64,000 bases of DNA. Origin: Mycolicibacterium monacense (GTDB taxonomy: Bacteria > Actinomycetota > Actinomycetes > Mycobacteriales > Mycobacteriaceae). Position 1 is the first letter of the stretch. Every line of letters begins with the position of its first letter. Positions 21,792 to 37,886 of this stretch are shown one piece after another. Under the pieces are notes generated by a model. It made no database searches. It worked only from the letters and a program-made list of their open reading frames with translations, and was not told the DNA's origin. Both the position numbers and the translations under genes were made by a program. The stretch is taken from NCBI RefSeq assembly GCF_010731575.1, contig NZ_AP022617.1, forward strand, positions 4,960,001-5,024,000, written 5' to 3'.

Positions 21792-22889
21792 ATGACCGGG
21801 GTGCGCCATACACTTCGGCGAACTGTGTGCGGTTCGGTCGTCGTCCTGGTGTTGGCCCTGTCGACGGGGATTGTGAAGGCGGACCCGGCGGCTGACGCCC
21901 TGGCCAGGCTCAACGAGTTGTCCAGTGAGGCGGTGCAGACCCGCGAGGCCGTCACGGCCGCCCAGCGCGAAGCCGACGCCCGACGGGCCGCCCAGACCGC
22001 CGCCGAAGAGCGCCACCGCGCCGACGCCGACGCCCTTGCGGGCGCGAACGCCGAGCTTGCGCCTTATCAGGCGGCCGTCGACCGGATCGCCGCGATGACC
22101 TACATGGGTGGCCAAGACGGTCAGATGGCGGCGGCGTTGACCGCGGCCTCGCCGCAACAGCTGATCGACAAGCTGTCGGTGCAACAGGTCGTAGCCGCCA
22201 CGACGGCCGATCAGATGAAGGCGTACCGAGCGACGCGTGAGCGCGCGGCCGCCGCCGCCCAGGCCTCGGAAAAATCGGCCGCAGACGCCCGCGCCGCCGC
22301 CGAGCAGGCCGCCAAGGTGCGCGCGGACCTGCAGGCCAAGTGGAGTGAACTGATGCGGAAGATCGCCGCCGCGGAGGCGCAGTACGCGGCATTGACTCCG
22401 CAACAGCAGGCGATCGTCGACAACGCACCTCCACCGAGTGCACCCGCTCCGCAGGACCCGGCGATCGTCGCGATGCCGGCCCCACTTCCCGGTGCGAACG
22501 GTCCGTCCCCGGCGGCCGGCGGCTTCGACATCCCGGAGGCGTTGCCCATGGGCGTTGCGTCCGAGGCCGGATTACAGCCCAACACCGTCCTGGCTGCCCG
22601 CGCCGTCAGCGCACGGTTCCCCCAGATCGCCGACATCGACGGGGTTCGGCCGGACTCGAAGCCGTGGCATCCCAGCGGCCTGGCGATCGACATCATGATT
22701 CCGAACCCCGAGAGCCCCGAGGGCATCGCGCTCGGCGACGAGATCCTCGCGTTCGCGATGGCCAACGCGGCCCGGCTCGGGTTACAGGACGTGATCTGGC
22801 GTGGCACCTACTACACGCCGGCCGGCCCGCAGGCGTCCGGTTACGGCCACTACGACCACGTGCACATCACCACGACGCCGCGCCGCTGA
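21792..22889 (+). CDS. Secreted coiled-coil protein with ARB_07466-like C-terminal domain
   Basis: About 365 residues. A signal peptide (CGSVVVLVLALSTGIVKADP) is followed by a long Ala/Glu/Arg-rich coiled coil (about 35-215) resembling the N-terminal part of RipA-type peptidoglycan hydrolases. After a Pro linker comes a compact domain (GLQPNTVLAARAVSARFP ... WHPSGLAIDIMIP ... GYGHYDHVHITT) with His/Asp residues as in D-Ala-D-Ala peptidase-related (M15/ARB_07466) folds. ATG 21792 is chosen; GTG 21780 is an in-frame alternative nearer to GAAGGA. A cell-wall role is likely. Confidence 0.8.
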   Translation: MTGVRHTLRRTVCGSVVVLVLALSTGIVKADPAADALARLNELSSEAVQTREAVTAAQREADARRAAQTAAEERHRADADALAGANAELAPYQAAVDRIAAMTYMGGQDGQMAAALTAASPQQLIDKLSVQQVVAATTADQMKAYRATRERAAAAAQASEKSAADARAAAEQAAKVRADLQAKWSELMRKIAAAEAQYAALTPQQQAIVDNAPPPSAPAPQDPAIVAMPAPLPGANGPSPAAGGFDIPEALPMGVASEAGLQPNTVLAARAVSARFPQIADIDGVRPDSKPWHPSGLAIDIMIPNPESPEGIALGDEILAFAMANAARLGLQDVIWRGTYYTPAGPQASGYGHYDHVHITTTPRR

Positions 22890-22897
22890 CCGCTCGG

Positions 22898-23668
22898 TCA
22901 CGGGTGGAGATTCCACTGGCCGCAATCCTGGGCCAGCACGTCGTTGACGTCGACGCGGATGCCACCGACCACCGGTCCCGGATTGGAGGCGGTGTCGATG
23001 ATGCGTTGGTACAGCACTGCGCCGGGGTAGATCTGACCGTTGGACCAGGACCGGGTCTGCCAGGCCCACACCTTGCCGGGTGAGCGTGATCTGCCGATGA
23101 CACCGTCGGCGACAGCCCACTGGCAGGCCCTGATGCCGGCGTAGATCCCCGTGCGCTGCACACCGACCACCGAGTTGATACCGCGAAACCACGGCAGGAC
23201 CAAGGTGTTCCACGCCTCGCGGTCGACGTCGTCGTCGACGCTGAAGAAGATCGGTGCGCTCTGGCCGCCACCTGCGGCGGAATGCAGCTGCCAGCCGGTG
23301 CGAGCGTCGGCGACGCCGCCGGCGTACCCGCGGGTGAAGTCCGACGGCGCTGTCCCGCCCGGCTTGCCGTACTGGTAGTTGCTGACGATCGCCAAACCGG
23401 CCGCGGCCAACGAGCGGGCGTAGGGCAGCGTGATCGGCTTGGCGCCGAATGACGAGCCGGGCCGTGAGGTCGAGACGTAGTTGATCACTCCGGCGTGGCC
23501 GGCGGCCCGGATGTCCTGTGCCGGAATCTGGCGCATGGCGTAGTCGATCAGCGTGGGGGCGGCGGCCGCGGCGGCAGGCGCGTACCTACCCGCTGATACC
23601 GCACCGAGGCCGGCCAATGCCGACACCGCGGTGGCATAGCGCAGTGCGTCACGCCGGGATACCTGCAC
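22898..23668 (-). CDS. DUF1906 glycoside-hydrolase-like protein, Tat substrate (Rv2525c-like)
   Basis: A 256-residue protein with Tat signal SRRDALRYATAVSALAGLG at its N-terminus. The mature part has the DUF1906 fold: APTLIDYAMRQIPAQDIRAAGHAGVINYVSTSRPG, PIFFSVDDDVD, and RVDVNDVLAQDCGQWNLHP at the end. The acidic residues of a TIM-barrel glycoside hydrolase-like site are present. M. tuberculosis Rv2525c, of the same family, is a Tat-exported surface protein linked to beta-lactam sensitivity. It converges with the preceding gene with an 8-bp gap. Confidence 0.88.
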   Translation of the reverse strand: MQVSRRDALRYATAVSALAGLGAVSAGRYAPAAAAAAPTLIDYAMRQIPAQDIRAAGHAGVINYVSTSRPGSSFGAKPITLPYARSLAAAGLAIVSNYQYGKPGGTAPSDFTRGYAGGVADARTGWQLHSAAGGGQSAPIFFSVDDDVDREAWNTLVLPWFRGINSVVGVQRTGIYAGIRACQWAVADGVIGRSRSPGKVWAWQTRSWSNGQIYPGAVLYQRIIDTASNPGPVVGGIRVDVNDVLAQDCGQWNLHP

Positions 23669-23797
23669 TGCGCGAAGTTACCAAAGTGACTGACGTGAAC
23701 CGTGTAACGCTGACGTCGGTGTCAGTTCGTGTCTGATTCGGCCCGAGGGCGGCGCCGTCTGGTTCGGTGGGTGTGGTTGGAAGGGGTTGGTGGCTGT

Positions 23798-24484
23798 CTA
23801 CGGGCTACTGCTGAACCCGGCGATTCCGTCGCGGGCGGCTTCCTGCACACCGGCCAACTGGTCGACGTCGGCCATCACCGCCCGCAGCGACGTTCTCGCT
23901 GCGGCGTCGGCGAACAGGTGCAGGTCCTCGCGGCTCTGACCGGTCGCGTGGTAGCGGTACTGGCTTCCCTCGTTCAGGCACAGCGCCGTGCGCGCGAACT
24001 CCTCGGGAGAGACGTCGATGAACTCGCCCGATCTGACCCCTGATTCGATGATGGTGCGGAGTCGCACCGCCAACTCTTCGTAGTCACCCTGGAAGTCGCT
24101 GAAGACGTCCGGCTGCTTCTTCGCCGCCTCTTCCAGGTCGTAGAAGTTCAGCGGTGCAGTGCACATCTGGACCACATCCTGGTACAGCACGATGTAGAGC
24201 CGCACCGCCGCTGATTCATCGCGGTCGGTCAAGGCCCGCGCTGCCTCCAGCGACACCCGGTTCTGGTTCATGATGCCTCGCAGGATCGCGTCTTTGGACC
24301 GGAACCAGTAGTAGAGCGACGACTGTCCCAGCCCTGCCCGCTGCGCGATCGCCTCCATGCGGGTGGATCCGAATCCGTTCGCCGCGAACAACTCTGCGGC
24401 GGCCTTGAGAATGTCTCCGCGCGGATCCTCGGCGACGATGCCACTGCGGCGCGGGCGGCCCCCTTGCGACGGCGCTCTAGTCAT
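23798..24484 (-). CDS. TetR-family regulator, AmtR-like
   Basis: A 228-residue repressor. The N-terminus (GRPRRS ... DPRGDILKAAAELFAANGFGSTRMEAIAQRAGLGQSSLYYWFRSKDAI) closely resembles corynebacterial AmtR, the nitrogen-control regulator, including the GRPRRS arm. The C-terminal ligand domain is more divergent. It lies 60 bp beyond the end of the nine-gene ABC/glutamine-synthetase operon, behind a hairpin. The palindrome at that operon's promoter is its most likely target. Nitrogen control is inferred. Confidence 0.85.
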   Translation of the reverse strand: MTRAPSQGGRPRRSGIVAEDPRGDILKAAAELFAANGFGSTRMEAIAQRAGLGQSSLYYWFRSKDAILRGIMNQNRVSLEAARALTDRDESAAVRLYIVLYQDVVQMCTAPLNFYDLEEAAKKQPDVFSDFQGDYEELAVRLRTIIESGVRSGEFIDVSPEEFARTALCLNEGSQYRYHATGQSREDLHLFADAAARTSLRAVMADVDQLAGVQEAARDGIAGFSSSP

Positions 24485-24502
24485 GGCGCCATGCTAGGTC
24501 GC

Positions 24503-24533
24503 CGGTCCACCGGCCGCTGGGGCCGGTGGACCG
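24503..24533 (-). terminator. Hairpin at the end of the ABC/GS operon
   Basis: A perfect 13-bp stem (CGGTCCACCGGCC 24503-24515 with 24521-24533) closes a 5-nt loop, 11 bp after the last operon stop codon. No U-run follows on the minus strand. It should limit read-through into the TetR gene. Confidence 0.65.
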
Positions 24534-24544
24534 TCACGACATGC

Positions 24545-25534
24545 TCAGTCCGTGGCAGCGAACAGGGCATCGTAATCTTCGGGCTCCTTGTCGATGATGC
24601 CGTACTCGACGACGGCCGCTCCGTAGTTGCGCAGCGCCTGACCGTCATCCTCGGTCGGGAACTTCGGGAAGTTCACCTGGTCGATGATCGCCGCGTCGAT
24701 GCCCATCTCCGCGACAGCGACCTCACCCACTCGATCCGGGTTGTCCTGGGCGAATCCGTTCACCTCGGTCATCGCCTCGCGGAACTTCCTGACGACCTCC
24801 GGGTTCGACTCGGCGAACTGCTGCGACGTCGAGTAGTACCCACCGATCTGATCGGGGAACGACTGGACCCCGGGGGCGATGATCTGCTTCCACCCCTTGT
24901 TCAGGCCCGGCGTACGGTGCGGCTCCGACACCCAGATCGCGTCGACGTCACCGCGCTCCAGCGCCTCACCCATGTCCGAGAACGGCAGCTGCGTCCACGT
25001 CAGGCTCTCGTGGTTGACGCCCAGATTGTCCATCGCGCGACGGATGTGGACCTCGCCGATGTTCTGCAACGTGTTGACCGCGATGTTCGCGCCTTCCAGA
25101 TCCTTCGGTTCGTTGATCCCGCTGTCCGGCAGGACGAGTACGCCGTGGTCGTCCTGGTCGGGCTGACAGCACGGCGCCCACGCCGGCTGGACCAGCCGCA
25201 ACGGCAGGCCCTGATCGATCGCCGCGAGCTGGCTCACGGTGTTCGAGTAGCCGAACTGGTTCTCCCCGCTGAGCACGGACGGGATGACGGCCGCACCGCC
25301 GTCGGCGAAGTTGACCTGCACCTCGAGGCCGTGCTTCTCGAAGATCCCCTCCTCGATGCCGACGAACAGCGGGGCGCTGAGGATCGCCGGGATCGTCCCC
25401 ACGTTGACCTTGTCGAGTCCGCCGTCGGTCTTCGCGGGCTCGGTGCCACCACCGCTTCCGCATGCAGTCAGGACGACCGCGGCGGCCGAGGCGACCGCCC
25501 CCCATCTCGCGAGGCGTGAAAAGTGTCTGAACAC
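24545..25534 (-). CDS. ABC transporter substrate-binding lipoprotein (NMT1/SsuA type)
   Basis: A 329-residue exported protein. The signal segment ends at a lipobox (VVLTACGSGGG, Cys about 25). The body follows the NMT1/ThiY/SsuA family: KVNVGTIPAILSAPLFVGIEEGIFEKHGLEVQVNFADGG and the hinge ANIAVNTLQNIGEVHIRRAM. Such proteins bind sulfonates, nitrate, pyrimidine or aromatic compounds. It is the last gene of the minus-strand operon and delivers substrate to the two permeases encoded upstream. Confidence 0.92.
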   Translation of the reverse strand: MFRHFSRLARWGAVASAAAVVLTACGSGGGTEPAKTDGGLDKVNVGTIPAILSAPLFVGIEEGIFEKHGLEVQVNFADGGAAVIPSVLSGENQFGYSNTVSQLAAIDQGLPLRLVQPAWAPCCQPDQDDHGVLVLPDSGINEPKDLEGANIAVNTLQNIGEVHIRRAMDNLGVNHESLTWTQLPFSDMGEALERGDVDAIWVSEPHRTPGLNKGWKQIIAPGVQSFPDQIGGYYSTSQQFAESNPEVVRKFREAMTEVNGFAQDNPDRVGEVAVAEMGIDAAIIDQVNFPKFPTEDDGQALRNYGAAVVEYGIIDKEPEDYDALFAATD

Positions 25535-25558
25535 AGATGTTCTCCGATCGATCAGTTG

Positions 25559-26347
25559 TCAGATGGAAGCGAGAGCCGCGTCGTTGCGGACCATCTCGCG
25601 GATACGGCTGAACACATGGGCGCGCAGATGCGCGAACTCGGGGAGGGATTTGGTCTCGATCTGGTCGCGACGATCCGGCAGATCGATGTCGACGATCTCG
25701 GCAACACAGCTGGGGGAGCGGGTCACGATCGCCACCCGGTTGCTGAGGTACACCGACTCGTCGACGTCGTGGGTGACGAAAAGGATTGTGGTGCCGGTCT
25801 CTTCGCGCACCCGTAGCAGCAGGTCCTCGAGATCGGCGCGGGTCTGTGCGTCGACCGATGCGAAGGGCTCATCCATGATCAGGACCGCCGGGCGGTAGGC
25901 GATGGCCCGGGCGATCGCGACCCGCTGCTGCATACCGCCGGAGAGCTGGAACGGCTTCTTGTGCGCGGCATCGGCCAGCCCGACCTCGTCGAGTGCCTGT
26001 GCGACCCGGGCCCGGCGCTCGGCAGCGTCGAGCCCCTTCTTCATCAGCGGCAGCTCGACGTTCTTCGCCACCGTGATCCACGGGAACAACGAGCGCGCGT
26101 AGTCCTGGAACACCACCGCGAAGTTGGCCGGGGGACCGTCGACGCGTTGCCCGTTGAACGTCACAGACCCGCTCGTCGGCTGGTCCAGTCCGGCGACACA
26201 CCGCAACAGCGTCGTCTTACCCGCCCCCGACGGGCCGACGATGCTGAACAACTCCCCCTCGGCCACACTGAATGACATGCCGGCGACCGCGGTGAAACCG
26301 CCGCCTTTGACGGGGTAGGTCTTCTCGAGGCTTGACACGACGAGCAT
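25559..26347 (-). CDS. ABC transporter ATP-binding protein
   Basis: A 262-residue cytoplasmic ATPase with Walker A GPSGAGKTT (about 38-46), Q-loop VFQDY, signature LSGGMQQR, Walker B AVLIMDEP and the H-loop in FVTHDVDE. It is of the SsuB/TauB subfamily, matching the binding protein and permeases beside it, and would drive import. Confidence 0.95.
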   Translation of the reverse strand: MLVVSSLEKTYPVKGGGFTAVAGMSFSVAEGELFSIVGPSGAGKTTLLRCVAGLDQPTSGSVTFNGQRVDGPPANFAVVFQDYARSLFPWITVAKNVELPLMKKGLDAAERRARVAQALDEVGLADAAHKKPFQLSGGMQQRVAIARAIAYRPAVLIMDEPFASVDAQTRADLEDLLLRVREETGTTILFVTHDVDESVYLSNRVAIVTRSPSCVAEIVDIDLPDRRDQIETKSLPEFAHLRAHVFSRIREMVRNDAALASI

Positions 26348-26405
26348 CGATCACTGCCTTTCACATTGTCCGGGAACGGAACCGATTCGGTGGAACACGG
26401 CGCGT

Positions 26406-27197
26406 TCAGCGCGTGTCGGAACGCCGCGGGTCGCACCACCGCAACAGTCGGCGTTCGGCCAGGGCGTAGAGGAACGTCATGAGGAATCCGAGGATTCCCA
26501 GCACCAGGATCCCCGACCACATCGTCAACAGCTGGAACGTCGCTTGTGCCTGGGTGATGACGAATCCCAATCCCGTTCGTGCGCCGACCATCTCGCTCGT
26601 CACCATCAGGATGAGGCTGAGCGGGATCGCGATCCGCACGCCGACGAGGACCCGGGGTAGCACGGCCGGCAGGACCACGTACCACTGACGCTGCAGGCCG
26701 GTGATGTTGAACGCGCGTACCGAGGCGATCATCGTCGAGTCGAGCCGGCGCGCGCCGTCGGCGGTACTGAGCAGAACCGGCCACACACAGCCCAGCGCGA
26801 TGAGGAAGATCTTCATCTCGGGGCTCACGCCGAACAGCATCATCGCAAAGGGGATGAGCGCGGTGCTGGGGATCGCTCGGGCGAACTCCAGCGTCGGCGA
26901 CACCGTCTTTTCGACGATCGGAAGTTGCCCGATCACCAATCCCGCTGCGACACCGACGACTACCGCGATCGCCAGGCCCGCGCTCAGTGTTGTCAGACTG
27001 GCACGGATGTTGGCCAGCCCCTCCGGGGTCGACCAGTACTCCGCCGCCTGCTCGAGCACCGCCGAGAGAGGCGGGAAGTAGGCGTTGCCGCTGTTGGCGG
27101 AGACCAGGAACCAGGCCGTCAGGGCGCCGACCGCCCCCAGGACGCCGAGTGCGATGCGGCCGCGACCGGTGGACGCCGCCACCATGAAGGTACTCAT
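26406..27197 (-). CDS. ABC transporter permease (SsuC type)
   Basis: A 263-residue inner-membrane protein with about six helices. It has the BPD_transp_1 EAA-type loop (DSTMIASVRAFNITGLQRQWYVVLPAVLPRVLVGVRIA) that contacts the ATPase. Its start overlaps the stop of the next permease by 4 bp (ATGA), indicating translational coupling. Confidence 0.93.
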   Translation of the reverse strand: MSTFMVAASTGRGRIALGVLGAVGALTAWFLVSANSGNAYFPPLSAVLEQAAEYWSTPEGLANIRASLTTLSAGLAIAVVVGVAAGLVIGQLPIVEKTVSPTLEFARAIPSTALIPFAMMLFGVSPEMKIFLIALGCVWPVLLSTADGARRLDSTMIASVRAFNITGLQRQWYVVLPAVLPRVLVGVRIAIPLSLILMVTSEMVGARTGLGFVITQAQATFQLLTMWSGILVLGILGFLMTFLYALAERRLLRWCDPRRSDTR

Positions 27198-28009
27198 CGG
27201 CTCTCCCCGAGTCCCTGCGCCGAGAGCACCCTGTTCTCCAGCCGGCGCATCAGCGCGTTGAGCACGATCCCGGCCAGACCGCTGACCGCGATGTAGGCGT
27301 ACATGCGTGCCGGATCACCCGCAGATCGCGACATCGTGATCTCGTAGCCGATGCCCGGCATCTGGATGATGATCTCGGCGGTCACCACGAGGATGAGCGT
27401 CGTCGAGGTCGCCAACCGGATGGCCGTGGCCAGGTACGGCAGCATGCTGGGTAGCTGGATCCAGCGGATCCGCTGCCACACCGTGAGGTGGTACGAGCGG
27501 GCCGTCTCCAGCGCGACCGGATGAGCCGCCCGCACTCCGGCGATCGCCGGTACCAGAACCTGCCAGAAGGCCGCGAAAACCGCCAGGAACAAGGCGCTTT
27601 GGGAGCCGGTGCCGATGGTGAGCACCACCAGCGGGATCAGCGCGACCGACGGCACCGGGCGCAGGAACTCGATCACCGGGCGAAGCAGCGCCTCGAGCGG
27701 GACGAGCAGGCCCAACCCTATTCCGGCCACGGTGCCCAGGACCACCGCGATGCACAGGGCGAGCAGCCAGGTGCTCGCCGTGCTCCACAACGCCGGTCCC
27801 AGCGCCGGGCCGCCGAGTTCCCCGACGAAGGCCGCCGCGATCTGAGTCGCGGGCGGGAAGTAGCCGGCCGGCAGGATGTCGGTGCGGGTGAGGACCTCCT
27901 GCAGGACGATCAAGCCCACCACGAACGCGGCAGTCCACAGGTGCGTGTCGAGCGCGACGGACGGCAGCCGGCGGGGCCGGGGGAGTGACAGCGCGGTGAC
28001 GGCGGTCAT
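27194..28009 (-). CDS. ABC transporter permease (SsuC type), second subunit
   Basis: A 271-residue permease with helices around 25-265 and the EAA loop ALETARSYHLTVWQRIRWIQLPSMLPYLATAIRLA. With the other permease it would form a heterodimeric channel. It overlaps the monooxygenase stop by 4 bp, tying transport to the catabolic genes. Confidence 0.93.
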   Translation of the reverse strand: MTAVTALSLPRPRRLPSVALDTHLWTAAFVVGLIVLQEVLTRTDILPAGYFPPATQIAAAFVGELGGPALGPALWSTASTWLLALCIAVVLGTVAGIGLGLLVPLEALLRPVIEFLRPVPSVALIPLVVLTIGTGSQSALFLAVFAAFWQVLVPAIAGVRAAHPVALETARSYHLTVWQRIRWIQLPSMLPYLATAIRLATSTTLILVVTAEIIIQMPGIGYEITMSRSAGDPARMYAYIAVSGLAGIVLNALMRRLENRVLSAQGLGESR

Positions 28010-29100
28010 GACTCGAACTCCAGGTACCGGTTGATCTGCAGGTTGCCCTGGCCGGACCGGTACTCCTTACGGGTCCGCTCGTAGTCGAAGTGCAGCCTCG
28101 AATAGTCGACCATCTTGTTCGCCACCGGAATGCGTTCCCGCTCGAACATCTGCAACGCCGTGGGCACGTCGCCGTGCACGGTGAGGTGGTGCGTCAGTGT
28201 CTGCCCGTCGATCAGCGCCTGATTGGCCCCCTGGGCCATCCCGGGGTACATCGGGTGCGCCGCATCGCCGATCAGTGCCACCCGGCCGTCCACCCACCGC
28301 GGGAGGTGCTCACGGTAGTGGCCGATCTCGCGGCCGATGATCGATTCCGGTTCACTGCTCGCGATGATCTGGGGGACAGGGGTGTTGGTCCACGTGTCGT
28401 AGACCGCGCGGAACTCGTCGAAGGTCGAGAGCCCGCCGACCGAGCCGTACCAGTAGGCGTGCGTGGCGTCGATCGGGATCCACCCGAAGTGGCCACGGGC
28501 GCCGTACACGTCGGCCTGCACCCGTGCCGGGACACCGGCCTGTGCGGTCTCGAACACCCCGCGCCAGCGGACGATCGCCTCGTCGGTGAACGCCGGGGGC
28601 GCGCCGAACATCGCGTTGCGGATTCGCGACCCGATACCGTCCGCGCCGAGGAGTACATCGCCCGTGGCGCTGCGGCCGTCCTCGAAGTGGACCGTCACCG
28701 TGTCGTCGGTCTGCGTGTAACCCACTGCGGTGGTGTTGAACTGGATCTCCGCGGGGTCGAGCGCGTCGGCGAGCATGGCGTTGAGCCGACGTCGGCGGGC
28801 CCCGGTCACCGGCGCACCCAGGAGCTCGTTCCAGTGGCTGACGTCGATATCCGAGGTGAGCTCACCGTCGCTGTCGAGCGCCCACCATCGGTCCATCGCG
28901 GCGGCGAACGACCGGAACTGCGCACCCAGTCCGAGCCCGTCGAGGACGCGCACGCCGTTGGGCCAGATGTTGAGCCCGACACCGGCCGTCCGCAACTCCG
29001 AATCACTTTCGAAGATCTGGACCTTCCAGCCCTGCTGCTTCAGGTGCAGGGCGGACGACAGTCCCGCGACTCCACCGCCGCAGATCAATGCTGTTGGCAC
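28006..29100 (-). CDS. FAD-dependent monooxygenase (aromatic hydroxylase/HpxO type)
   Basis: A 364-residue flavoprotein hydroxylase. It has N-terminal ALICGGGVAGLSSALHL (GxGxxG for FAD), the middle DG-type motif GDVLLGADGIGSRIR, and the second FAD motif GRVALIGDAAHPMYPGMAQGAN. This is the class A monooxygenase group that includes salicylate and 6-hydroxynicotinate hydroxylases and urate hydroxylase HpxO, and uses NAD(P)H and O2. The GTG start overlaps the previous gene's end by 16 bp. The substrate is presumably the imported compound or a derivative. Confidence 0.9.
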   Translation of the reverse strand: MPTALICGGGVAGLSSALHLKQQGWKVQIFESDSELRTAGVGLNIWPNGVRVLDGLGLGAQFRSFAAAMDRWWALDSDGELTSDIDVSHWNELLGAPVTGARRRRLNAMLADALDPAEIQFNTTAVGYTQTDDTVTVHFEDGRSATGDVLLGADGIGSRIRNAMFGAPPAFTDEAIVRWRGVFETAQAGVPARVQADVYGARGHFGWIPIDATHAYWYGSVGGLSTFDEFRAVYDTWTNTPVPQIIASSEPESIIGREIGHYREHLPRWVDGRVALIGDAAHPMYPGMAQGANQALIDGQTLTHHLTVHGDVPTALQMFERERIPVANKMVDYSRLHFDYERTRKEYRSGQGNLQINRYLEFES

Positions 29101-30002
29101 GACTCCACTTCCTTCCGGTTTCCACTGGCGTCTGCCCCGCTCAGTCGTTCGAGCGCCTTGATGAGGGCGCTGTGGTCCAGCCCGCCGTCCCCGGCGGACC
29201 GCAGCGCCTGGACGAGTTGGGTGATGATGCCGGTCAGCGGTACCGCGATCCGGGCCTGCTCCGCGGCGGCCAGCGCGATCTTGAGATCCTTGTAGTGCAG
29301 GTCGATCCGGAAGCCCGGCGCGAAATCGCGGGCCAGCATCTTCGGCGCCTTGGCCTCGAGCACCTTGCTGGCCGCCAGGCCGCCGCCCAGAACTGCCAGC
29401 GCCGCATCGACGTCGACCCCGGTGCGCTGCAGCAGCGTCACCGCCTCACCGACCAGGGCGATATTGCCGGCCACGAGCATCTGGTTGGCGGCCTTCACCA
29501 GCTGCCCGGCGCCGACGGGACCGACGTGGACCGACGTCGCGGCCACCGCGTCGAGCACCGTGGCGGCCCGCCGCACCGCGTCCTCGTCGCCGCCCATCAT
29601 GACCGCGAGTGCGCCGGCGATGGCCCCGGCCTCCCCGCCGCTGACCGGTGCGTCCACGAACGCGATGTCCTTCTCGGCCAACCGTGCGCCGATCGCGACG
29701 GCGGCGTCCGGAGAGATTGTGCTGCAGTCGATCACCAGCGATCCCGGCCGCAGCGTGGTGGTCACCCCGGCGGGCCCGAACAGCACTTCCTCGACCTCCG
29801 GAGAGTCGGGGAGCATGGTGATGACGACATCTGCCTTCTCCCCGACATGCGCCGGGCTCGTGGCGCCGACGGCGCCCCGCGCCTCCAGTTCGTCGACCTT
29901 GGCGCGGGAGCGGTTGAAGACCACGACGTGGTGGCCGGCGTCGACGAGATGGCCGGCCATGGGCTTGCCCATCACACCGAGGCCGATGAATCCGACGTTC
30001 AT
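29085..30002 (-). CDS. NAD-binding beta-hydroxyacid dehydrogenase (GarR/HIBADH type)
   Basis: A 305-residue dehydrogenase: MNVGFIGLGVMGKPMAGHL (Rossmann GxGxxG), VDAPVSGGEAGA (substrate motif) and GAGQLVKAANQMLVAGN with the catalytic Lys (about 169). It interconverts a beta-hydroxyacid and its semialdehyde, as in 3-hydroxyisobutyrate or tartronate semialdehyde metabolism. In this operon it probably oxidises or reduces a breakdown product. Confidence 0.92.
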   Translation of the reverse strand: MNVGFIGLGVMGKPMAGHLVDAGHHVVVFNRSRAKVDELEARGAVGATSPAHVGEKADVVITMLPDSPEVEEVLFGPAGVTTTLRPGSLVIDCSTISPDAAVAIGARLAEKDIAFVDAPVSGGEAGAIAGALAVMMGGDEDAVRRAATVLDAVAATSVHVGPVGAGQLVKAANQMLVAGNIALVGEAVTLLQRTGVDVDAALAVLGGGLAASKVLEAKAPKMLARDFAPGFRIDLHYKDLKIALAAAEQARIAVPLTGIITQLVQALRSAGDGGLDHSALIKALERLSGADASGNRKEVESCQQH

Positions 30003-30014
30003 GAGCAGTCCTCC

Positions 30015-31049
30015 TCAGTAGCCCAGCGACAGGTCGACGACGTTGCGGAATTCGCGCCCGGCGACGAGCCGTTGCAGGTTGTCGACGAACACGTCCACCT
30101 GGCGGTCGCCGAGCAGCTGAGATGCGTGCGAATCGTGTGGGAAGACCATGGCTCCCGGCGCTTTCCACAGCGGGTCGTCGGCCGGCAGCGGCTCGGTGAC
30201 GTGGCAGTCGATGAGCGCCCCGGACAGATGCCCCCGTTCGAGCGCATCGGTGAGCGCGTCGGCGTCATGGATGGCACCGCGAGCGACGTTGGCCACCCAC
30301 CCGCCGGGCTTCAACGCCGCCAACGCTTTCGCGTCGATCAGTCCGCGGGTGGCCGGCGTCAGCGGCGCCGCGATCACCAGGTAGTCCGATTCGGCGAGCA
30401 CGTCGTGCAGCTGTGCGGTGGGGACCGTCTCGTCGAATCCCTCGACTGCGTTGCCGCGCCGGTTGACGCCGATCGTCCGGATACCCAGCACGCCGGCGAT
30501 CGTCGCCGTCCTGGCCCCGATGTTGCCGGTTCCGAGCACGGTCATGGTGGTGCCCGCCAGTTCACGCGCGGGAAGTTCCTTCCACTCCCGCGCGGCCTGG
30601 TTGCTCCAGCGTTCCCGCAGCATCTTCGCCTGTGCCAGGATGCCGGCGATCACGGTCTCGGCGATGGCGTTGGCCGCCACACCGGATGCGTTCGCCAGCA
30701 CCACACCCTCGGGCATGATGTTGACGAGGTGCTCGGCCCCTGCGCTCATCGACTGCAGCAGTTTGAGATCCGGGTTGAACAGCTGTTGCAGGCCGGGCAT
30801 CTTCAGGATGCCCTGCTCGATCTCGATCTCCTTCTTGGAGCCGCTGGTCTCGACCATGATCGCGTGCGGCGGCCGTTGTGGCGCCTTGCCGGCGTTGAGC
30901 TCCGAGACCGGGATGTGTTCGAGCCAAACGTCATCGGCGACTGCGGTGATCCGGTCCTTCTGCTCGGGAGTCAGCCAGATCCCCTCGTCGGGGTCCTCGG
31001 CGTTCTGTACTGCCTTGGGTAGACCTGCGACTACGACGTTGAGTGACAC
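30015..31049 (-). CDS. D-2-hydroxyacid dehydrogenase
   Basis: A 344-residue member of the 2-hydroxyacid dehydrogenase superfamily. The NAD site VLGTGNIGARTATIAGVLG is followed by the conserved Arg region LVIAAPLTPATRGLI and the C-terminal catalytic His in VFPHDSHASQLL. The N-terminal about 110 residues form the split catalytic domain. It reduces 2-oxoacids or oxidises 2-hydroxyacids. It lies 12 bp from the preceding dehydrogenase gene, so it works in the same pathway. Confidence 0.9.
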   Translation of the reverse strand: MSLNVVVAGLPKAVQNAEDPDEGIWLTPEQKDRITAVADDVWLEHIPVSELNAGKAPQRPPHAIMVETSGSKKEIEIEQGILKMPGLQQLFNPDLKLLQSMSAGAEHLVNIMPEGVVLANASGVAANAIAETVIAGILAQAKMLRERWSNQAAREWKELPARELAGTTMTVLGTGNIGARTATIAGVLGIRTIGVNRRGNAVEGFDETVPTAQLHDVLAESDYLVIAAPLTPATRGLIDAKALAALKPGGWVANVARGAIHDADALTDALERGHLSGALIDCHVTEPLPADDPLWKAPGAMVFPHDSHASQLLGDRQVDVFVDNLQRLVAGREFRNVVDLSLGY

Positions 31050-31076
31050 GCGTCTATTTCTCCTGCTCTCGGATCT

Positions 31077-32108
31077 CTACTTGATTGATGTCAAATGCGC
31101 TGCGGCGGCACGTGGTTGCACGAGCTCACGCAGGCAGGCGTCGACCACGGACTGTTCGTCGGCGCGGATCCCCGGCCGTCCTGCGATGTGCCCCAGCGGC
31201 GAGGCCAGCGGACGGACTTCGCCGTCGACGAGCCAGCCGGCCTCGAGGTGGTTCTCGGTGACGGTGAAGTACGTGTCGGTCACCGCGGGCATGAGGATCA
31301 CCCGAGCCCGGATGCGGCCGAGCCGCCTGCCCAGGGCGTCGAGGCTGCCCCCGTCGTCGGCCGTGCGCCACATCCGCAGCGAGGCCATCAGATCGCCTGC
31401 GTGCATGCTCCGGTGATCCCGTCCCCACGCCTCGACCACGTCGGCAGGGCCGGCGTAACCGAATTCGCGGTACACCTCCTCGGCGAAGAACCGTTCGCAG
31501 TACGCCCACCCCGCGTAGACCCGGCCGAAGACGTCCAGCCGCTCCGGCGCGGAGGGGTCGTCGGCGTCGACGGTCCGGCCGCCGGTGGTGAGCGCGGCAC
31601 CGACCGAGTCGAGGAACACCTGGTTGACCGGCGAACATCGCGCCGCCGAACACAGCGCGAACACCGTGGCGGCGCACTCGGGGTACCGGGAGGCGAACTC
31701 CAACGACTGCATGCCGCCCAATGACCACCCGGCGACCATGCGCAGCCGCTGCACGCCCAGGTCGTCGAGGACGAGTTTGGCTGCACGCACGCTGTCACCC
31801 ACGGCGACGTCGGGAAAGCCCGCGGCCGACGTCGACGGAGACGACGAGACTCCGCCACCGAAATGATTGACGATGATGACGAAGTGCTCGCTCGGATCGA
31901 GCGGGCGTCCCGGTCCTATCCACGGTTGGTAACTGAGGTCGTCGCCGGTGTAGTAGGTGAAGAGCAGCACGGCGTTGTCACCGTCGGCCGACAGCGCCCC
32001 GTGAGTCCGGTAGGAGATCCGGGCATCATCCAGCACTGCACCCGACTCCAGCGAAAACGTCGGTACGCGAAGCTCTTTCCGTTCGCCGCGAGCGGCATCC
32101 ATGGTCAT
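31077..32108 (-). CDS. MetX-like alpha/beta-fold hydrolase/acyltransferase
   Basis: A 343-residue protein of the homoserine O-acetyltransferase-like family. The nucleophile is in AGWSLGGMQSLEFASRYPE (Ser about 147), where true MetX has GGSMGGMQ. HFGGGVSSS precedes it, and the C-terminal His is probably in PLGHIAG (about 309). It could be an acyltransferase or an amide/ester hydrolase. A dedicated methionine role is unlikely in this catabolic operon. Confidence 0.85.
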   Translation of the reverse strand: MTMDAARGERKELRVPTFSLESGAVLDDARISYRTHGALSADGDNAVLLFTYYTGDDLSYQPWIGPGRPLDPSEHFVIIVNHFGGGVSSSPSTSAAGFPDVAVGDSVRAAKLVLDDLGVQRLRMVAGWSLGGMQSLEFASRYPECAATVFALCSAARCSPVNQVFLDSVGAALTTGGRTVDADDPSAPERLDVFGRVYAGWAYCERFFAEEVYREFGYAGPADVVEAWGRDHRSMHAGDLMASLRMWRTADDGGSLDALGRRLGRIRARVILMPAVTDTYFTVTENHLEAGWLVDGEVRPLASPLGHIAGRPGIRADEQSVVDACLRELVQPRAAAAHLTSIK

Positions 32109-32136
32109 CGATCTGGCGTCCGTCTGGTTGCGCAGC

Positions 32137-33492
32137 TCAGAAGAACTTGAGGTAGCGGTCGCGCTCCCAATCGGTCACGGCGGTGGCATAGGACGTCCAC
32201 TCGCTGCGCTTGTAGTCGATGAACGACTGCCACAGCTTCTCCCCGCACACCTGCTTGGTGAACGGGTCGGCCTCGAACGCGTCCACCGCCTCCTCGAGAG
32301 TGCGTGGCAGCAGCGAGAGCCCACGCTTCTCGTACTCGCCGGCGTCGACCTCGTACAGGTTGTCGGTGTGGAAGTGCTCCAGTTCGAGCTGCTCGCGCAC
32401 CCCTTCCAGGCCGGCGGCCAGCAGCAGTGCCGCCGCAAGATGGGGGTTGGCCGCCGAATCGACGGCGCGACACTCCACACGGCCGCCGCCGAGCGGGATG
32501 CGCAGCATGTTCGTGCGGTTGTTGTTGCCGCAGCTGGCGAAGATCGGTGCCCACGTCGAACCCGACATGCTGCCCTGGCGCACCAGCCGTTTGTAGCTGT
32601 TGACCGTCGGCGCGATGACCGCACAGATCGCCGCGGCGTGCCGGACGATGCCTGCCGCGAAGTGGTAGCCGATGTCGCTCAGCCCCGCCGCCCGTGGGTC
32701 GTCGGCGGACTCGAAGACGTTGTGCCCGTCGTCGAGCCCCGCCAGTGACATGTTGAAGTGCGCACCGGAGCCTGTGCGGTCGGCGAACGGTTTCGGCATG
32801 AAGGAGACGTACGCTCCGTGTCTGCGCGCGACCTCGTTGGCCATCAAGCGGAAGAACGAGACGCGGTCTGCCATCGACAGTCCGTCGGCGTAGGCGAAGT
32901 CGATCTCGAACTGGCCCTGCGCATCCTCGTGGTCGAATGAGTAGACATCCCAACCGAGTTCGTTCATGTAGTCGACGAGCTCCTGCAGCCAACCGAAGTT
33001 GTCCAGCAGCATGGGAACCGCGTAGCAGGGCTTCTCCAGCGTGTCGCGCTCGCTCAGCGCGCTCGGGCCTACGGGCCCGTCCTCGAGGACGAAGAACTCG
33101 GTCTCGACGCCCAGGTTGAACACATATCCCAACTCCTCGGCCGCTTTCATCTGCCGGCCCAGGATGTTTCGCGTCGATGCCTCGAACGGCTCGCCTCCGA
33201 CGTAGAGATCGGAGAGGAACAGGGCGATGTCCTTACGCCAGGGCAGGACGAACCCCCGGTCCAGGTCGGGATGCGCGGAGAGTTCCTCGTCGCTGACGTC
33301 CTGCGGCAGGCCGTCCAACGCCGCCCCGGTGAACAGTTCCGAGCCTCCGGCCATCTGCACGAAGTGATCGATCGGCACCATCTTTCCTTTGATGTTGCCG
33401 TGCAGATCGGTGTAGGCAGCGATGCTGAACCGAACCCCGTCTTCCTTGAGCTGCTTGGCCATGACCTCGACCTCAGCTGCATCGCGCGCCAT
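32137..33492 (-). CDS. Glutamine-synthetase-like ligase (GlnT / gamma-glutamylamide synthetase type)
   Basis: A 451-residue enzyme with the GS fold: DLHGNIKGKMVPIDHF near the N-terminus; EDAQGQFEIDFAYADGLSMADRV and GSGAHFNMSL (metal and ATP sites); NNNRTNMLRIPLGGGRVECRAVDSAANPHLA (Arg-rich catalytic loop). It belongs to the GlnT/PuuA-like branch, not the housekeeping GlnA. Relatives ligate glutamate to amines (aniline, isopropylamine, putrescine, ethanolamine). It is the first gene of the operon, directly after the promoter palindrome, and suggests amine activation as the first step. Confidence 0.9.
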   Translation of the reverse strand: MARDAAEVEVMAKQLKEDGVRFSIAAYTDLHGNIKGKMVPIDHFVQMAGGSELFTGAALDGLPQDVSDEELSAHPDLDRGFVLPWRKDIALFLSDLYVGGEPFEASTRNILGRQMKAAEELGYVFNLGVETEFFVLEDGPVGPSALSERDTLEKPCYAVPMLLDNFGWLQELVDYMNELGWDVYSFDHEDAQGQFEIDFAYADGLSMADRVSFFRLMANEVARRHGAYVSFMPKPFADRTGSGAHFNMSLAGLDDGHNVFESADDPRAAGLSDIGYHFAAGIVRHAAAICAVIAPTVNSYKRLVRQGSMSGSTWAPIFASCGNNNRTNMLRIPLGGGRVECRAVDSAANPHLAAALLLAAGLEGVREQLELEHFHTDNLYEVDAGEYEKRGLSLLPRTLEEAVDAFEADPFTKQVCGEKLWQSFIDYKRSEWTSYATAVTDWERDRYLKFF

Positions 33493-33506
33493 CGTCGACC
33501 CCTCAT

Positions 33507-33539
33507 TCCTAGTTTCGATCAGTTATCGAAACCATAGGA
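33507..33539 (-). promoter_or_regulatory. Promoter palindrome of the nine-gene operon (probable TetR/AmtR-like operator)
   Basis: GTTTCGAT (33512-33519) and ATCGAAAC (33525-33532) form a perfect 8-bp inverted repeat with a 5-bp spacer. It is nested inside TCCTA (33507-33511) / TAGGA (33535-33539). It lies 20-40 bp upstream of the glutamine-synthetase-like gene. The TTTC-GAT ... ATC-GAAA form is reminiscent of AmtR boxes. Confidence 0.65.
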
Positions 33540-33706
33540 ACGGGTCATTTCTCATCTGTGGCGCGTACGTTAAAACGAGATTTCGGAGCGTCGGATCGTC
33601 TGGCGCCCGTGAGGGTCCGCGGTATCGCTGAAATCCAGCCGCATGAACCGACATTGAAGCCCGACGTCGCCGGGCGTCGACGTCTCGGCCGCGGTCCGCG
33701 AGCCGG

Positions 33707-35842
33707 CTACTCGGCCGGCGTCACCCCGTCACCGGAACCCTTGACGGACGCCTTGGCGCGGTTCTCGGCCCGCACCTTCTTCTTGCCGCGCATGAACCCG
33801 GTCGGCGACACCGACGCCGACAGCAGCGCATCCTCCCCGCCGACGAACGGGTGGAACCCGACCCCGGCGCCGCCGCGGCCCTTGACCGGGATGTCCGGCA
33901 CTTCGGTGACCTTCCAACCCTTTTCGGATATCGACAGGATGGCCTCGTCGTTGCCGCAGGTCAGTGGCAGTGCGGCGATCACCGTGTCCATGGGGTCACC
34001 GGCCGCGAGCTTCACCCCGGCCACCCCATTGCCCGCCGCGCCCTGCGGATTCACCGCAGCCGGGTCGATGCGCAGGATCTTGCCGCGCCGGGTCACCAGT
34101 GCCAGATGGGCCCCGTCGGGCAGCACGCCCGAGCGCAGCAACCCGGTGATGTCCGGGGCCACCGGGATGTCGCGGATCTTGTAGGGCAGGCCGGCTCCGG
34201 TGGTGAACTTCACCCGTCCGTCGGTCCACACCGCCCAGCCCAGACCCGAGGTGAGCAAATCGCCGTGGCTGTCGGAGAACACACCACGGTCGTCGAGTCG
34301 CCAGGACGCGTTGACCTTACGTTCACGGGGTCCGTCGTCGGCGGCGCCGGTGGTGATCGGGGTGGCCTCGAAGTCCAGCACGGTGCGGCGGTCGAACTCG
34401 GGGCCCTTGAACAGCTTCGCGGTCTCCACCAACTCCTTGTCGATCACCACCCGGCGGGCATCCGGATTCGACACCAGTTCAGTGAGTTCGGCGAATTCGG
34501 CGTCCAGCCTCTCGGCCTCGGCCTGCAGTTCGATGACGTCGAGCTTGGTCAGGCGGCGCAGCTGCAACGCCAGCACGTAGTCGGCCTGGACGGCGTCGAT
34601 GGCGAACCGGTCCTGCAGGCCCTGGCGGGCCTCGTCGACGGTGTCGGAGCCACGGATGACCGCCACTGCGGCGTCGATGTCCAGGTGGATCAGCATCAGG
34701 CCGGCCACCAGATGGCGCCGCGCGGTGACCTTCTCCAACCGGTACTCGCTGCGGTGCAGCACCACCTTGTCGCGCAGGGACAGGAACGCGGCGATCAGCT
34801 CACGGACCGACCACCAGCGCGGCACCCGGTTCTCGTCGAGGGCGACGAGGCTCGCGGCGAACGTCGACTCCAGCGGCGTCAGCGCCAGCAGCTGCTCGCG
34901 GATCTGCTCGGCGTTGTGGCCGCGCTTGGCGGTGACGACGATCCGCAGCCCGTTGCGGCGGTCGGTCAGATCCGACATGTCGGCGACGCCGGACATCTCG
35001 CCGGACTCCACCAGGGCCCGGATCCGTTCCTGCACAGTGTTGCTCGCGACACCTGGCGGCAGTTCGGTGATGACGCAGTTCTTCCCGTCGACGGTCACGG
35101 TGCCGCGCACCGTGAACTGACCCCGGCCGGTGGTGATGTACTCACGCAGGCCGGTTTCGCCGACCACCGTCGCGCCGCAGCCCCAGTCCGGGCCGGGTAT
35201 GAGCTTGACCAGGCGGTCGTCGGTCATGTTCGGGGTCTTCAGCAGTGCGCGGCAGGCGGCCATGACCTCGCGCGGATTGTGGGCCGGGACCTTGGTGGCC
35301 CACCCTTCGGCGATCCCCACCGCACCGTTGCACAGCAGCACCGGCCACTGCGCCGGCAGGACGGTGGGCTCGGTCCACTCGCCGTCGAAGGTCGCCACCA
35401 TGGGCACCGCGTGGCTGTCGAGTTCGGCGGTCAGCGCGGCGCCGGGGGCGGACAGCCGCATCTCGGTGTAGCGGTCGGCGGCCGGGATGTCGCCCTGGAT
35501 GCGCGGGAAGGCGCCCTGTCCGTCGATGACCTTCACGCGCTGGAAGTCGGCGGCCATCAGCGCCGCCGCGCCGTACATCGATGCGCCGCCGTGCGGGTGC
35601 AGGTTGCCGGTGACGGCCGAGCAGACCTTCGAGGACTTCTGCGGTTTGTTGCCGGGCAGCAGTTTCGAGTCGTGCATCTGGTAGAGCAGACGGCGCTGAC
35701 CCGGCTTGAGCCCGTCGAACGCCGACGGGATGGCGCGGTCGCTGACGCTGTAGAGCGCGAAGGTCAGCTGGTAGTGGTTCCAGTAGTCGTCGGCGCTCTG
35801 GTCGAGGACCAGGTCGGGGTTCTGCTCGATGATCGCGGTCAC
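33707..35842 (-). CDS. Type II topoisomerase subunit A (TopoM-like, GyrA/ParC family)
   Basis: A 711-residue DNA-cleaving subunit. LKPGQRRLLYQMHDSKLLPGNKPQKSSKV and GNLHPHGGASMYGAAALM form the DNA-gate helices, and AADRYTEMRL contains the catalytic tyrosine (about 123; AAMRYTE in GyrA). A coiled-coil tower (about 330-470) and a C-terminal beta region follow. This is not the housekeeping GyrA: the GyrA box and length differ. It matches the atypical ATP-dependent decatenase (TopoM) described in M. smegmatis. GTG 35842 lies 10 bp from the B-subunit gene, so it is a two-gene operon. Confidence 0.88.
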   Translation of the reverse strand: MTAIIEQNPDLVLDQSADDYWNHYQLTFALYSVSDRAIPSAFDGLKPGQRRLLYQMHDSKLLPGNKPQKSSKVCSAVTGNLHPHGGASMYGAAALMAADFQRVKVIDGQGAFPRIQGDIPAADRYTEMRLSAPGAALTAELDSHAVPMVATFDGEWTEPTVLPAQWPVLLCNGAVGIAEGWATKVPAHNPREVMAACRALLKTPNMTDDRLVKLIPGPDWGCGATVVGETGLREYITTGRGQFTVRGTVTVDGKNCVITELPPGVASNTVQERIRALVESGEMSGVADMSDLTDRRNGLRIVVTAKRGHNAEQIREQLLALTPLESTFAASLVALDENRVPRWWSVRELIAAFLSLRDKVVLHRSEYRLEKVTARRHLVAGLMLIHLDIDAAVAVIRGSDTVDEARQGLQDRFAIDAVQADYVLALQLRRLTKLDVIELQAEAERLDAEFAELTELVSNPDARRVVIDKELVETAKLFKGPEFDRRTVLDFEATPITTGAADDGPRERKVNASWRLDDRGVFSDSHGDLLTSGLGWAVWTDGRVKFTTGAGLPYKIRDIPVAPDITGLLRSGVLPDGAHLALVTRRGKILRIDPAAVNPQGAAGNGVAGVKLAAGDPMDTVIAALPLTCGNDEAILSISEKGWKVTEVPDIPVKGRGGAGVGFHPFVGGEDALLSASVSPTGFMRGKKKVRAENRAKASVKGSGDGVTPAE

Positions 35843-35852
35843 AGTGTGTCTC

Positions 35853-37886
35853 CTAGCTCAGGTCGAGCGCAGTGGTGTCGACACGGGAGGCCACATCGGC
35901 CATCCACGTGCGCCTGCCCTCTGGCGGCCCGCCGAACAGAGTGTGGTGCAACTTGTTCTCACTGTCATCGGGGTGCACGCGAATGACGGTGCGCCGCTGC
36001 GGATCCAGCACGGTGTTCCAGAAGTCGTCGGCGTCCATCTCGCCGAGGCCCTTGTTGCGCTGCACCTCGACCTTGCGCTTCGAGGTGGCTTTCATCTTGG
36101 CCACGGCGGCGTCGCGCTCGGACTCGTCCTGGCAGTAGATCCGCTGCGTGCCGTCCTTGACGACGAACAGCGGCGGCAGCGTCACGTACACCATCCCCGC
36201 TTCGACCAGCGGACGGTAGAAGTCGAGGAACATCGAGATCAGGCTGGAGTTGATGTTGCCGCCGTCGGGGTCGGCGTCGGAGGCGAACAGGATCCGGTCG
36301 TACCGGCACAGTTCGGGATCACAGTTGTCCCGCACGCCGCAGCCGAGGATGCGTTCGATCGAATCGAACTCGTCCTTGGCCCGCGCCTTGTTCAGCGCGA
36401 AGCCGTAGACGTTGGGCGGCTTGCCTTTCAGCGGGAAAGCCGCCTGGAAGGTGGCGTCACGCGCCGCCTTGATGGTACCGAGCGCCGAATCGCCCTCACA
36501 CAGGAACAGTTCGGCACCCGATCCGCGTCCGGTCTCCCGGCTGGGCAGCAGTTTGGGCGGCAGCGACAGGTTCGTCCCGAGACCCTTGGCTTTCGAGGCG
36601 GCGCGCGAGCGTGCCTTCGCGCCTTCCGCGCTGCGGCGCGCCCTGGCGGACTCCAGCGCCAGCTTGGTCCACAACGAAACCGCGTCGCCGTTGGCGGGGT
36701 TGGCCGCCCAGATGGTGACGCTGCGTGCCACGTCGGGGGCCATCGCCACGTTCAGCGACCGCGACGACACCGCGGTCTTCGCCTGGGAGTCCCAGGCGAC
36801 ATCGGGTGCGCGGGTGTCCACGGCGAGAGCGGTGACCGCGGCGAAATCCTGTGCCTCCGGCCCCTCTTCGCCTTTGGCGAGGCCCAGGTCCCGCATCCGG
36901 GACGCGCGATCGGCCAGCGCTTCGGACAGCCCTTTCATCGCGGCGGTCAGATGGGAACCGCCGCCGGGGGTGCGCACGGTGTTGCAGAACGCGGCCACCG
37001 TCGCCGGTTCGGCCGGGCCGGCGGTCAGCGACCAGCGGAACGGGGTGGGGCCGCGACCGGTGGTGTATTCGCCGCGGCCCTCCACGACCGCGCGCACGCC
37101 GGGCGCGGGTGTACCGGCCGCGGTGCACATCAGATCCAGCAGCGTGTCCGTGCCCCACGGGCCGGTGAACGGTTCGAGCAACGCCGGCGCAACCTCGTCG
37201 CCGGGCCAGCCTTCGTCGATGACGCTCAGGTGCACGCCGGGTGACATCCGGGCCGCGGCGTGCGCGCGCAGCAGCACCTCGCCGATGTCGATCTGGGAAT
37301 CCGGCACGACGGCGGGGTCGAACAGGATGCGGACCGTGGTGCCGTGCACGTCGGGCTTGCGGTTGCCGGTGCCCCGCAGCTTCTGCGTGTCGGCGCGGGT
37401 GAACGGGGCGTCCGGGTCGAAGTCTTTGCCCTCGAACACGCCGGGGTAGCCGCGGCCGAAGCTCTGCAGGTAGGTCTTGCCGGCCCGGCGCACGGTGACG
37501 TCGGTGCGCGCGGAGATGAACACCGCTGCGGCGGCGCCGATTCCGTTCAAACCGGCCCCGGTGCTGGCGGCATCGGTATGGGCGGAGAACTTCCCGCCGG
37601 CCCGTGCGGTGCCCAGCGTCTTGACGATCCCGTTCTTCCCGTTCACCGGGTCGGAGTCGACGGGCAGACCGCGGCCGTCGTCGGCGACGCCGACCGAACC
37701 GTCGTCGTGCAGGGTGATCGTCACCGCCGAGCCGCCGTGGCTGGGATCCGCGACTTCCTCGATGGCGTTGTCGATCAGCTCACGCAGCGCGGTGTTGAGC
37801 ACGTCGAGTCCCAGGTTCACCGCCGGCCGCAGGCGTGTGTGCTGGACATCATCGAGTTCGGTGATGTCGGCGGCGGTGTAACTCAA
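35853..37886 (-). CDS. Type II topoisomerase subunit B (TopoM system, GyrB/ParE family)
   Basis: A 677-residue ATPase subunit. The GHKL/Bergerat site is ELIDNAIEEVADPSHGG and VADDGRGLPVD (about 37-75), with GAGLNGIGAAAAVFISA as the ATP lid. The TOPRIM domain shows LCEGDSALGTIKAARD and ASDADPDGGNI. These differ from GyrB's EGDSAGGSA and DADVDG but keep the metal-binding acids. It pairs with the adjacent A subunit. The Walker-like and TOPRIM changes are characteristic of this separate lineage rather than a sign of inactivation. Confidence 0.88.
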   Translation of the reverse strand: MSYTAADITELDDVQHTRLRPAVNLGLDVLNTALRELIDNAIEEVADPSHGGSAVTITLHDDGSVGVADDGRGLPVDSDPVNGKNGIVKTLGTARAGGKFSAHTDAASTGAGLNGIGAAAAVFISARTDVTVRRAGKTYLQSFGRGYPGVFEGKDFDPDAPFTRADTQKLRGTGNRKPDVHGTTVRILFDPAVVPDSQIDIGEVLLRAHAAARMSPGVHLSVIDEGWPGDEVAPALLEPFTGPWGTDTLLDLMCTAAGTPAPGVRAVVEGRGEYTTGRGPTPFRWSLTAGPAEPATVAAFCNTVRTPGGGSHLTAAMKGLSEALADRASRMRDLGLAKGEEGPEAQDFAAVTALAVDTRAPDVAWDSQAKTAVSSRSLNVAMAPDVARSVTIWAANPANGDAVSLWTKLALESARARRSAEGAKARSRAASKAKGLGTNLSLPPKLLPSRETGRGSGAELFLCEGDSALGTIKAARDATFQAAFPLKGKPPNVYGFALNKARAKDEFDSIERILGCGVRDNCDPELCRYDRILFASDADPDGGNINSSLISMFLDFYRPLVEAGMVYVTLPPLFVVKDGTQRIYCQDESERDAAVAKMKATSKRKVEVQRNKGLGEMDADDFWNTVLDPQRRTVIRVHPDDSENKLHHTLFGGPPEGRRTWMADVASRVDTTALDLS

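Follow-up and report, generated by a model that had tools for sequence, protein, structure and literature searches.

What does the nine-gene operon at positions 24545 to 33539 of this Mycolicibacterium monacense stretch do, and for which compound? The stretch, here called the window, is 64,000 nucleotides (nt) long and belongs to a genome that is a single contig of 6.04 Mb. A reading made from the DNA letters without database searches (the sequence-only reading) had described an uptake and catabolic unit with a glutamine-synthetase-like first enzyme and an AmtR-like regulator. Its catabolic uptake unit, its glutamine-synthetase-like gene, and its link to nitrogen stand, but its AmtR box does not, and GlnT is refined to an amine ligase. 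The locus is a rare but conserved catabolic operon that is linked to nitrogen and carries a regulator of its own. At a rough probability of 0.42, it is an exchanged operon for a small amine, which would be imported, glutamylated, oxidized, and deglutamylated, with two dehydrogenases acting on the products. The individual reactions, their sequence, the substrate itself, and the effects of both regulators are what we infer from the following features.

33557..33572 (approximate), minus strand: GlnR-type site TAAC-N6-GCCAC, continued by -N6-GAAAT (motif match)
33531..33536, minus strand: TANNNT element, reading TATGGT, directly next to the operator and a candidate -10 box (conservation)
33512..33532, strand-neutral: operator palindrome GTTTCGAT-N5-ATCGAAAC (conservation; single genomic site)
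32137..33492, minus strand: GlnT-like ligase, 451 residues, predicted probably to join glutamate and an organic amine (TIGR03105, 9qur match, Asp to Thr)
31077..32108, minus strand: MetX-like alpha/beta hydrolase, 343 residues, candidate glutamyl-amide splitter (PRK07581, Ser/Asp/His motifs, tree)
30015..31049, minus strand: D-2-hydroxyacid dehydrogenase family protein, 344 residues (PF02826)
29085..30002, minus strand: dehydrogenase of the 3-hydroxyisobutyrate / tartronate-semialdehyde reductase type (HIBADH-type), 305 residues (TIGR01505, PF03446, PF14833)
28006..29100, minus strand: class A FAD monooxygenase, 364 residues (PF01494)
27194..28009, minus strand: ATP-binding cassette (ABC) importer permease 1, SsuC/TauC type (PF00528)
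26406..27197, minus strand: ABC importer permease 2 (PF00528)
25559..26347, minus strand: ABC importer ATPase, Nrt/Ssu/Tau type (PF00005, ntrCD subfamily)
24545..25534, minus strand: NMT1/SsuA-type binding lipoprotein, 329 residues (PF09084)
24503..24533, minus strand: perfect hairpin of 13 bp, lying between the binding-protein gene and the TetR gene (folding z -5.07)
23798..24484, minus strand: TetR-family regulator, probably dedicated (PF00440)

All nine open reading frames (ORFs) named earlier are present on the minus strand in the order stated, from 33492 to 24545, followed on the same strand by the TetR gene at 24484-23798. Spacings along the nine genes are 28, 27, 12, -16, -4, -4, 58, and 24 nt, with 60 nt to TetR. 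The gaps or overlaps of 4-58 bp given earlier are nearly exact (the smallest gap is 12, and the overlaps are 4, 4, and 16), and the palindrome and terminal hairpin said to flank the genes are both located, at 33512-33532 and 24503-24533. The locus is confirmed as real and beyond chance because the same ten-gene order recurs in eight genomes and the palindrome occurs once in 6.04 Mb.

The ten genes lie in identical order in eight genomes, the window's own included, and the TetR gene adjoins every copy. The co-occurrence in actinobacteria that had been proposed as a check is thus found, and the single uptake and catabolic unit is kept in other actinobacteria. Five further complete clusters are in genomes of the genus (L096-L100; per-gene identity 70-95%), one is in Desertihabitans aurantiacus (L010; identity 56-79%, with TetR on the opposite strand), and one is in G1304, a genome of the same class (L109). 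The ATPase gene of the latter is matched as two pieces in different frames (L109:6391-5616).

The operon looks like a rare, exchanged, catabolic accessory trait because the set is rare and its neighbors differ. Monooxygenase matches (E <= 1e-60) occur in 7 of 396 genomes of the genus, namely the six with complete clusters, own included, and genome G348. The only match among 301 family genomes and among 396 phylum genomes is in each case the window's own genome, and one of 297 genomes of another order has a match. The window's four neighboring genes are all absent from the other seven stretches, which have only short flanks. Searches with single parts, rather than whole clusters, matched proteins of, among others, Nocardia carnea, Nesterenkonia, Microbacterium, Aeromicrobium, and Rhodococcus pyridinivorans, and proteobacterial monooxygenase relatives are 40-50% identical. 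On plasmids, no D-2-hydroxyacid dehydrogenase match was found at 1e-40, and all monooxygenase matches are below 60% identity. The genome-contig scan kept the best 80 of 592 candidates and is no census. No description of this gene set was found in the open-licence PMC literature, in line with the earlier statement that no described pathway was known.

The first gene encodes a ligase that passes the NCBIfam model TIGR03105 (529.4 bits; cut-off 469.6), whose name, type III glutamate-ammonia ligase, is only a label as to activity. In glutamine synthetase, the Asp of the DGSS motif binds ammonium. This Asp is Thr in all eight copies, which read TGAA at the position of DGSS in 7tdv and in L004 from the same genome as the window, and an ordinary glutamine synthetase role is therefore unlikely. 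The top Protein Data Bank (PDB) match is the glutamate-methylamine ligase 9qur, whose SGxTWAP insert also aligns in the operon ligases. The glutamine-synthetase-like assignment made earlier thus stands as to family, but an organic-amine ligase is the better reading of the enzyme.

The same match raises the alternative of methylamine assimilation, in which the ligase would be a gamma-glutamylmethylamide synthetase and the other genes would supply methylamine from an N-methyl compound. The NCBIfam type III score above its cut-off fits this idea. The ligases of the glnT-glxBCD and gamma-glutamylmethylamide synthetase loci are also TIGR03105 proteins, about 39-41% identical. However, the operon has no glx genes and no N-methylglutamate synthase genes, a separate GlnT-like gene elsewhere in the genome adjoins glxD-like synthase genes, and in trees the eight operon ligases, together with L145, L002, and L102/L103, stand apart from the methylamine/glx-linked ligases (support 94/96). 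The same split appears without L145 (97/93) or without the Rhodobacterales pair (97/95). Methylamine assimilation is accordingly very unlikely.

Ligases of this clade occur in four settings. The first is this operon, where the ligase lies with the MetX-like hydrolase, FAD monooxygenase, and importer. The second, in G348 (L145:6771-13061), comprises a PF02133 permease, a Rieske oxygenase, a ligase (60% identical), a short-chain dehydrogenase/reductase, a creatininase, and a TetR protein (36%). It resembles the operon in its ligase, TetR protein, permease, hydrolase, and oxygenase, but differs in that its oxygenase is of the Rieske type, its other enzymes are a creatininase and the short-chain enzyme, and its permease is from PF02133. 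The third lies in the window's own genome at C1:3.93 Mb (L131, 6593-13758+; the creatininase ends at L131:14510) and contains a gamma-glutamyltranspeptidase, a ligase (41%), an amino-acid-type ABC importer made of a binding protein and a fused permease-ATPase ORF, a D-2-hydroxyacid dehydrogenase paralog (53%), and a creatininase. Among 98 genus genomes, a match to its dehydrogenase at E <= 1e-110 occurs only in the window's own. The fourth is on Rhodobacterales plasmids (L102, L103, and L116, the last two near-identical and counted as one), which carry a glutamine-synthetase-like gene (35-36%), a MetX-like hydrolase (39-40%), and an ABC importer. A ring-hydroxylating dioxygenase alpha subunit is annotated on L102, and an oxygenase ferredoxin and a desaturase are on L103 and L116.

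In every setting, the ligase stands beside an importer and an enzyme type able to split amide bonds, although of varying family, and an oxygenase is present in two or three of the three other locus kinds. A wider generalization, which is doubtful, is that ligases of this GlnT clade anchor an unnamed family of cassettes that glutamylate, oxygenate, and hydrolyse, with exchangeable oxygenase (FAD or Rieske), hydrolase (MetX-like, creatininase, or transpeptidase), and importer, and that the MetX-like proteins among them represent a gamma-glutamylamide hydrolase of a new type.

The MetX-like protein is an alpha/beta hydrolase that scores 253 bits against PRK07581, under the cut-off of 332. Assignment as the homoserine acyltransferase MetX was rejected (117.8 bits; cut-off 500). 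Its catalytic Ser, Asp, and His motifs, GWSxxG, TDxYF, and PLGH, are intact in all eight copies. In the tree, 11 MetX-like proteins linked to glutamine-synthetase genes separate from nine others with support 99/97, a split that is partly expected, given that the three linked plasmid copies are also those closest to the query. These three come from the 12 inspected of 25 plasmid records with a MetX-like relative; a glutamine-synthetase gene is close by in three and not in nine.

Proteobacterial plasmids L104, L111, L113, L115, and L117 carry MetX-like hydrolases near varying sets of amidase, ANTAR regulator, urea-type ABC, and cytosine permease genes; on L115, ANTAR, binding-protein, and UreE genes are nearby. 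These plasmid hydrolases may possibly be an unstudied amide-utilization gene.

The class A FAD monooxygenase has a structure model with a predicted local distance difference test score (pLDDT) of 92.9, and its closest folds are TrlE (tropone monooxygenase) and HpxO (urate), which resemble it across the whole fold at about 28% identity. The model points to no one substrate class. Identity as HpxO urate hydroxylase was rejected: the score is 191.9 bits against a cut-off of 500, and Arg204 of HpxO is replaced by a His that is invariant in 29 homologs.

These folds bear on the main rival, the ring opening of an N-heterocycle. Here the monooxygenase would hydroxylate or open a heteroaromatic ring, the MetX-like hydrolase would split the resulting amide, the dehydrogenases would take the semialdehyde and the 2-oxo acid, and the ligase would only capture the released amine. 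HpxO, together with the pyridine enzymes NicC and MHPCO, is among the closest characterized folds, but the carbocycle enzymes TrlE and 3-hydroxybenzoate 6-hydroxylase score equally high, and the substitution of Arg204 and the low HpxO score also count against ring opening. Annotated amidases lie near six of the nine plasmid copies that have no glutamine-synthetase gene nearby. Ring opening nevertheless gives no reason for the ligase to head the operon and to persist in every one of the eight copies. It is a serious but rather unlikely explanation, and the glutamylation route is the most likely one.

Several observations weigh against the glutamylation route. The monooxygenase and D-2-hydroxyacid dehydrogenase occur as a pair with no adjoining ligase in G348 (68%/74%) and in Amycolatopsis (41%/37%), so these two enzymes may not need glutamylation; both pairs speak for ring opening, as does the dehydrogenase adjoining the Amycolatopsis pair, whose top-scoring NCBIfam model, at 143.5 bits against a cut-off of 500, is FHMPC_DH from pyridoxine degradation. 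In G348, the ligase lies 2.6 Mb from the pair, beside the Rieske gene. PDB relatives of the MetX-like hydrolase are labeled acetyltransferases or esterases. No oxygenase is present among the ORFs scanned in the L131 paralog cluster. The branches of L002 and L102/L103 are long, making their placement in the ligase clade less sure, and clade support falls to 88/85 when L002 is left out. According to the available part of PMC11335346, one loop of amine ligases contains a 15th motif that is hydrophobic; judged by eye, the corresponding loop here, GLPQDVSDEE, is closer to glutamine synthetase. Finally, L010 has no GlnR-type site.

The two dehydrogenases would handle the carbonyl products. The D-2-hydroxyacid dehydrogenase has its Arg, Glu, and His motifs in all eight copies, and its paralog in L131 likewise lies beside a GlnT-clade gene. 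The HIBADH-type enzyme scores 335.4 bits against TIGR01505, just below the cut-off of 340.75. Wt8.2, from the uncultured bacterium WT8, is 74% identical to the D-2-hydroxyacid dehydrogenase, and no paper on this clone was among those listed; its origin was likewise looked for and not found.

The importer has the complete family set of an SsuABC/NMT1 system (PF09084, PF00528 twice, and PF00005). Its ATPase scores 227 bits against the ntrCD subfamily (cut-off 291.8). The binding-protein model (pLDDT 90.9) lies close to the SsuA, CmpA, NrtA, and TauA folds and names no ligand, as the comparison places binders of sulfonate, nitrate, bicarbonate, taurine, and pyrimidine near one another.

Membership of the binding protein in the SsuA/TauA fold group raises the possibility of sulfonate scavenging by an Ssu/Tau-type importer and a sulfite-releasing monooxygenase. 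However, neither an FMNH2-dependent SsuD/luciferase-type enzyme nor a flavin reductase is encoded in the operon, binding-protein scores are far below the sulfonate-family cut-offs, nitrate and bicarbonate binders fit equally, and the promoter carries a nitrogen-type site. Sulfonate scavenging is the least probable of the explanations weighed here. A cassette with a non-nutritional role, in biosynthesis or in antibiotic inactivation, is only slightly less improbable: the class A monooxygenase superfamily includes biosynthetic and tetracycline-oxidizing enzymes, but the operon has a full importer and a GlnR-type promoter, and contains no carrier protein, synthase, or exporter, and the score against the tetracycline destructase model is 68 bits (cut-off 550).

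The operator palindrome, TTTCGAT-N5-ATCGAAA, is found once in the 6.04-Mb genome at up to two mismatches and is kept at all eight loci (perfect in five; L096 and L010 each have a single mismatch, and L109 has two). GTTTCGATA is invariant across the seven aligned loci, as are CCTA and GT of the operator, and a TANNNT element lies directly before and overlaps the operator in these seven and in L109. A sigma-70 and terminator consensus scan of 23600-33720 gave no promoters (0.7 expected) and no T-run terminators (3.1 expected); the promoter assignment therefore rests on conservation and not on the scan. The TetR protein is probably a dedicated local regulator and not AmtR, because the operator is kept in eight copies and is unique in the genome. 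The AmtR structure 5e57 is indeed its best PDB match (57.4 bits, residues 11-145, mostly the DNA-binding part; RutR and others are close behind), which partly agrees with the resemblance noted earlier, but the operator differs, is a single site, and an AmtR-type box occurs in the genome only at C1:2948546. The palindrome had also been likened to an AmtR box; it matches neither box given in the available part of PMC8864220, CTAT-N6-ATAG and TAtCTGTCa-n2-cGACAGATAT.

A GlnR-type site, TnAC-N6-GnnAC (AC-n9-AC), lies upstream at six of the eight loci, where 0.017 are expected per 110 nt (from 20 sites in the window, both strands). L098 has AC-N9-AT instead, and L010 has none; among the six, the L109 site reads GTCAC-N6-GAAAC and lies farther upstream. 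The GlnR motif of M. smegmatis is AC/T-n9-AC in the part of PMC3662644 consulted. This site, together with the recurrence of the ligase clade and the MetX-like family in nitrogen and amide loci, bears out the nitrogen link proposed earlier. The hairpin before TetR is not a conserved part, because it folds well in only four of seven spacers (z -5.07, -5.57, -5.52, -3.04); folding is poor in L099, L100, and L010 (z -0.78, -1.18, -0.79), and the L096 spacer is too short.

The proposed glutamylation route would run as follows. The SsuABC-type importer would take up the compound, and the GlnT-clade ligase would use ATP to form an amide between the compound's amino group and the glutamate gamma-carboxyl. 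The class A FAD monooxygenase would then oxidize the glutamyl conjugate, and the MetX-like serine hydrolase would cleave the amide and give glutamate back. TetR may repress at the single promoter-abutting operator until the compound or its product is present, and GlnR may activate the operon when nitrogen is short.

Known pathways of this logic are those for isopropylamine (Ipu) and putrescine (Puu), which glutamylate, oxidize, and deglutamylate; their oxidizing enzymes and hydrolases differ from those of the operon. The aniline and naphthylamine pathways consist of a ligase, a GAT-like hydrolase, and an oxygenase, as described in the available part of PMC11335346. By its gene types, the operon resembles the aniline and 1-naphthylamine systems (AtdA1-A5 and NpaA1-A5), which have a glutamine-synthetase-like amine ligase, a conjugate-splitting hydrolase, and an oxygenase acting on the conjugate (PMC11335346, same part). 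The aniline-type pathway uses Rieske and GAT-like enzymes, whereas the operon has one-component FAD_binding_3 and MetX-like Abhydrolase_1 proteins and adds an importer and two hydroxyacid-type dehydrogenases. The FAD monooxygenase and MetX-like hydrolase would thus be new roles within the aniline-pathway logic. If the route is true, glutamylation-based amine breakdown extends to actinobacteria with an FAD monooxygenase and a hydrolase family not known for the role. The operon would then offer a single binding protein, a single ligase, and an operator of clear sequence for testing, in several hosts that are not pathogens, and the first two could reveal a natural nitrogen source of soil actinobacteria not yet listed anywhere.

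Minor observations concern other ORFs. One at L011:11312-12940, considered as a permease, was dropped, with no Pfam or NCBIfam family matched. At 33707-37886 of the window (minus strand), two genes resemble type II topoisomerase subunits A and B, with scores under every listed NCBIfam cut-off, and may form a second, atypical gyrase. At 21702-22889 (plus strand) lies a relative of a RipC-like wall hydrolase (226.6 bits; cut-off 425).

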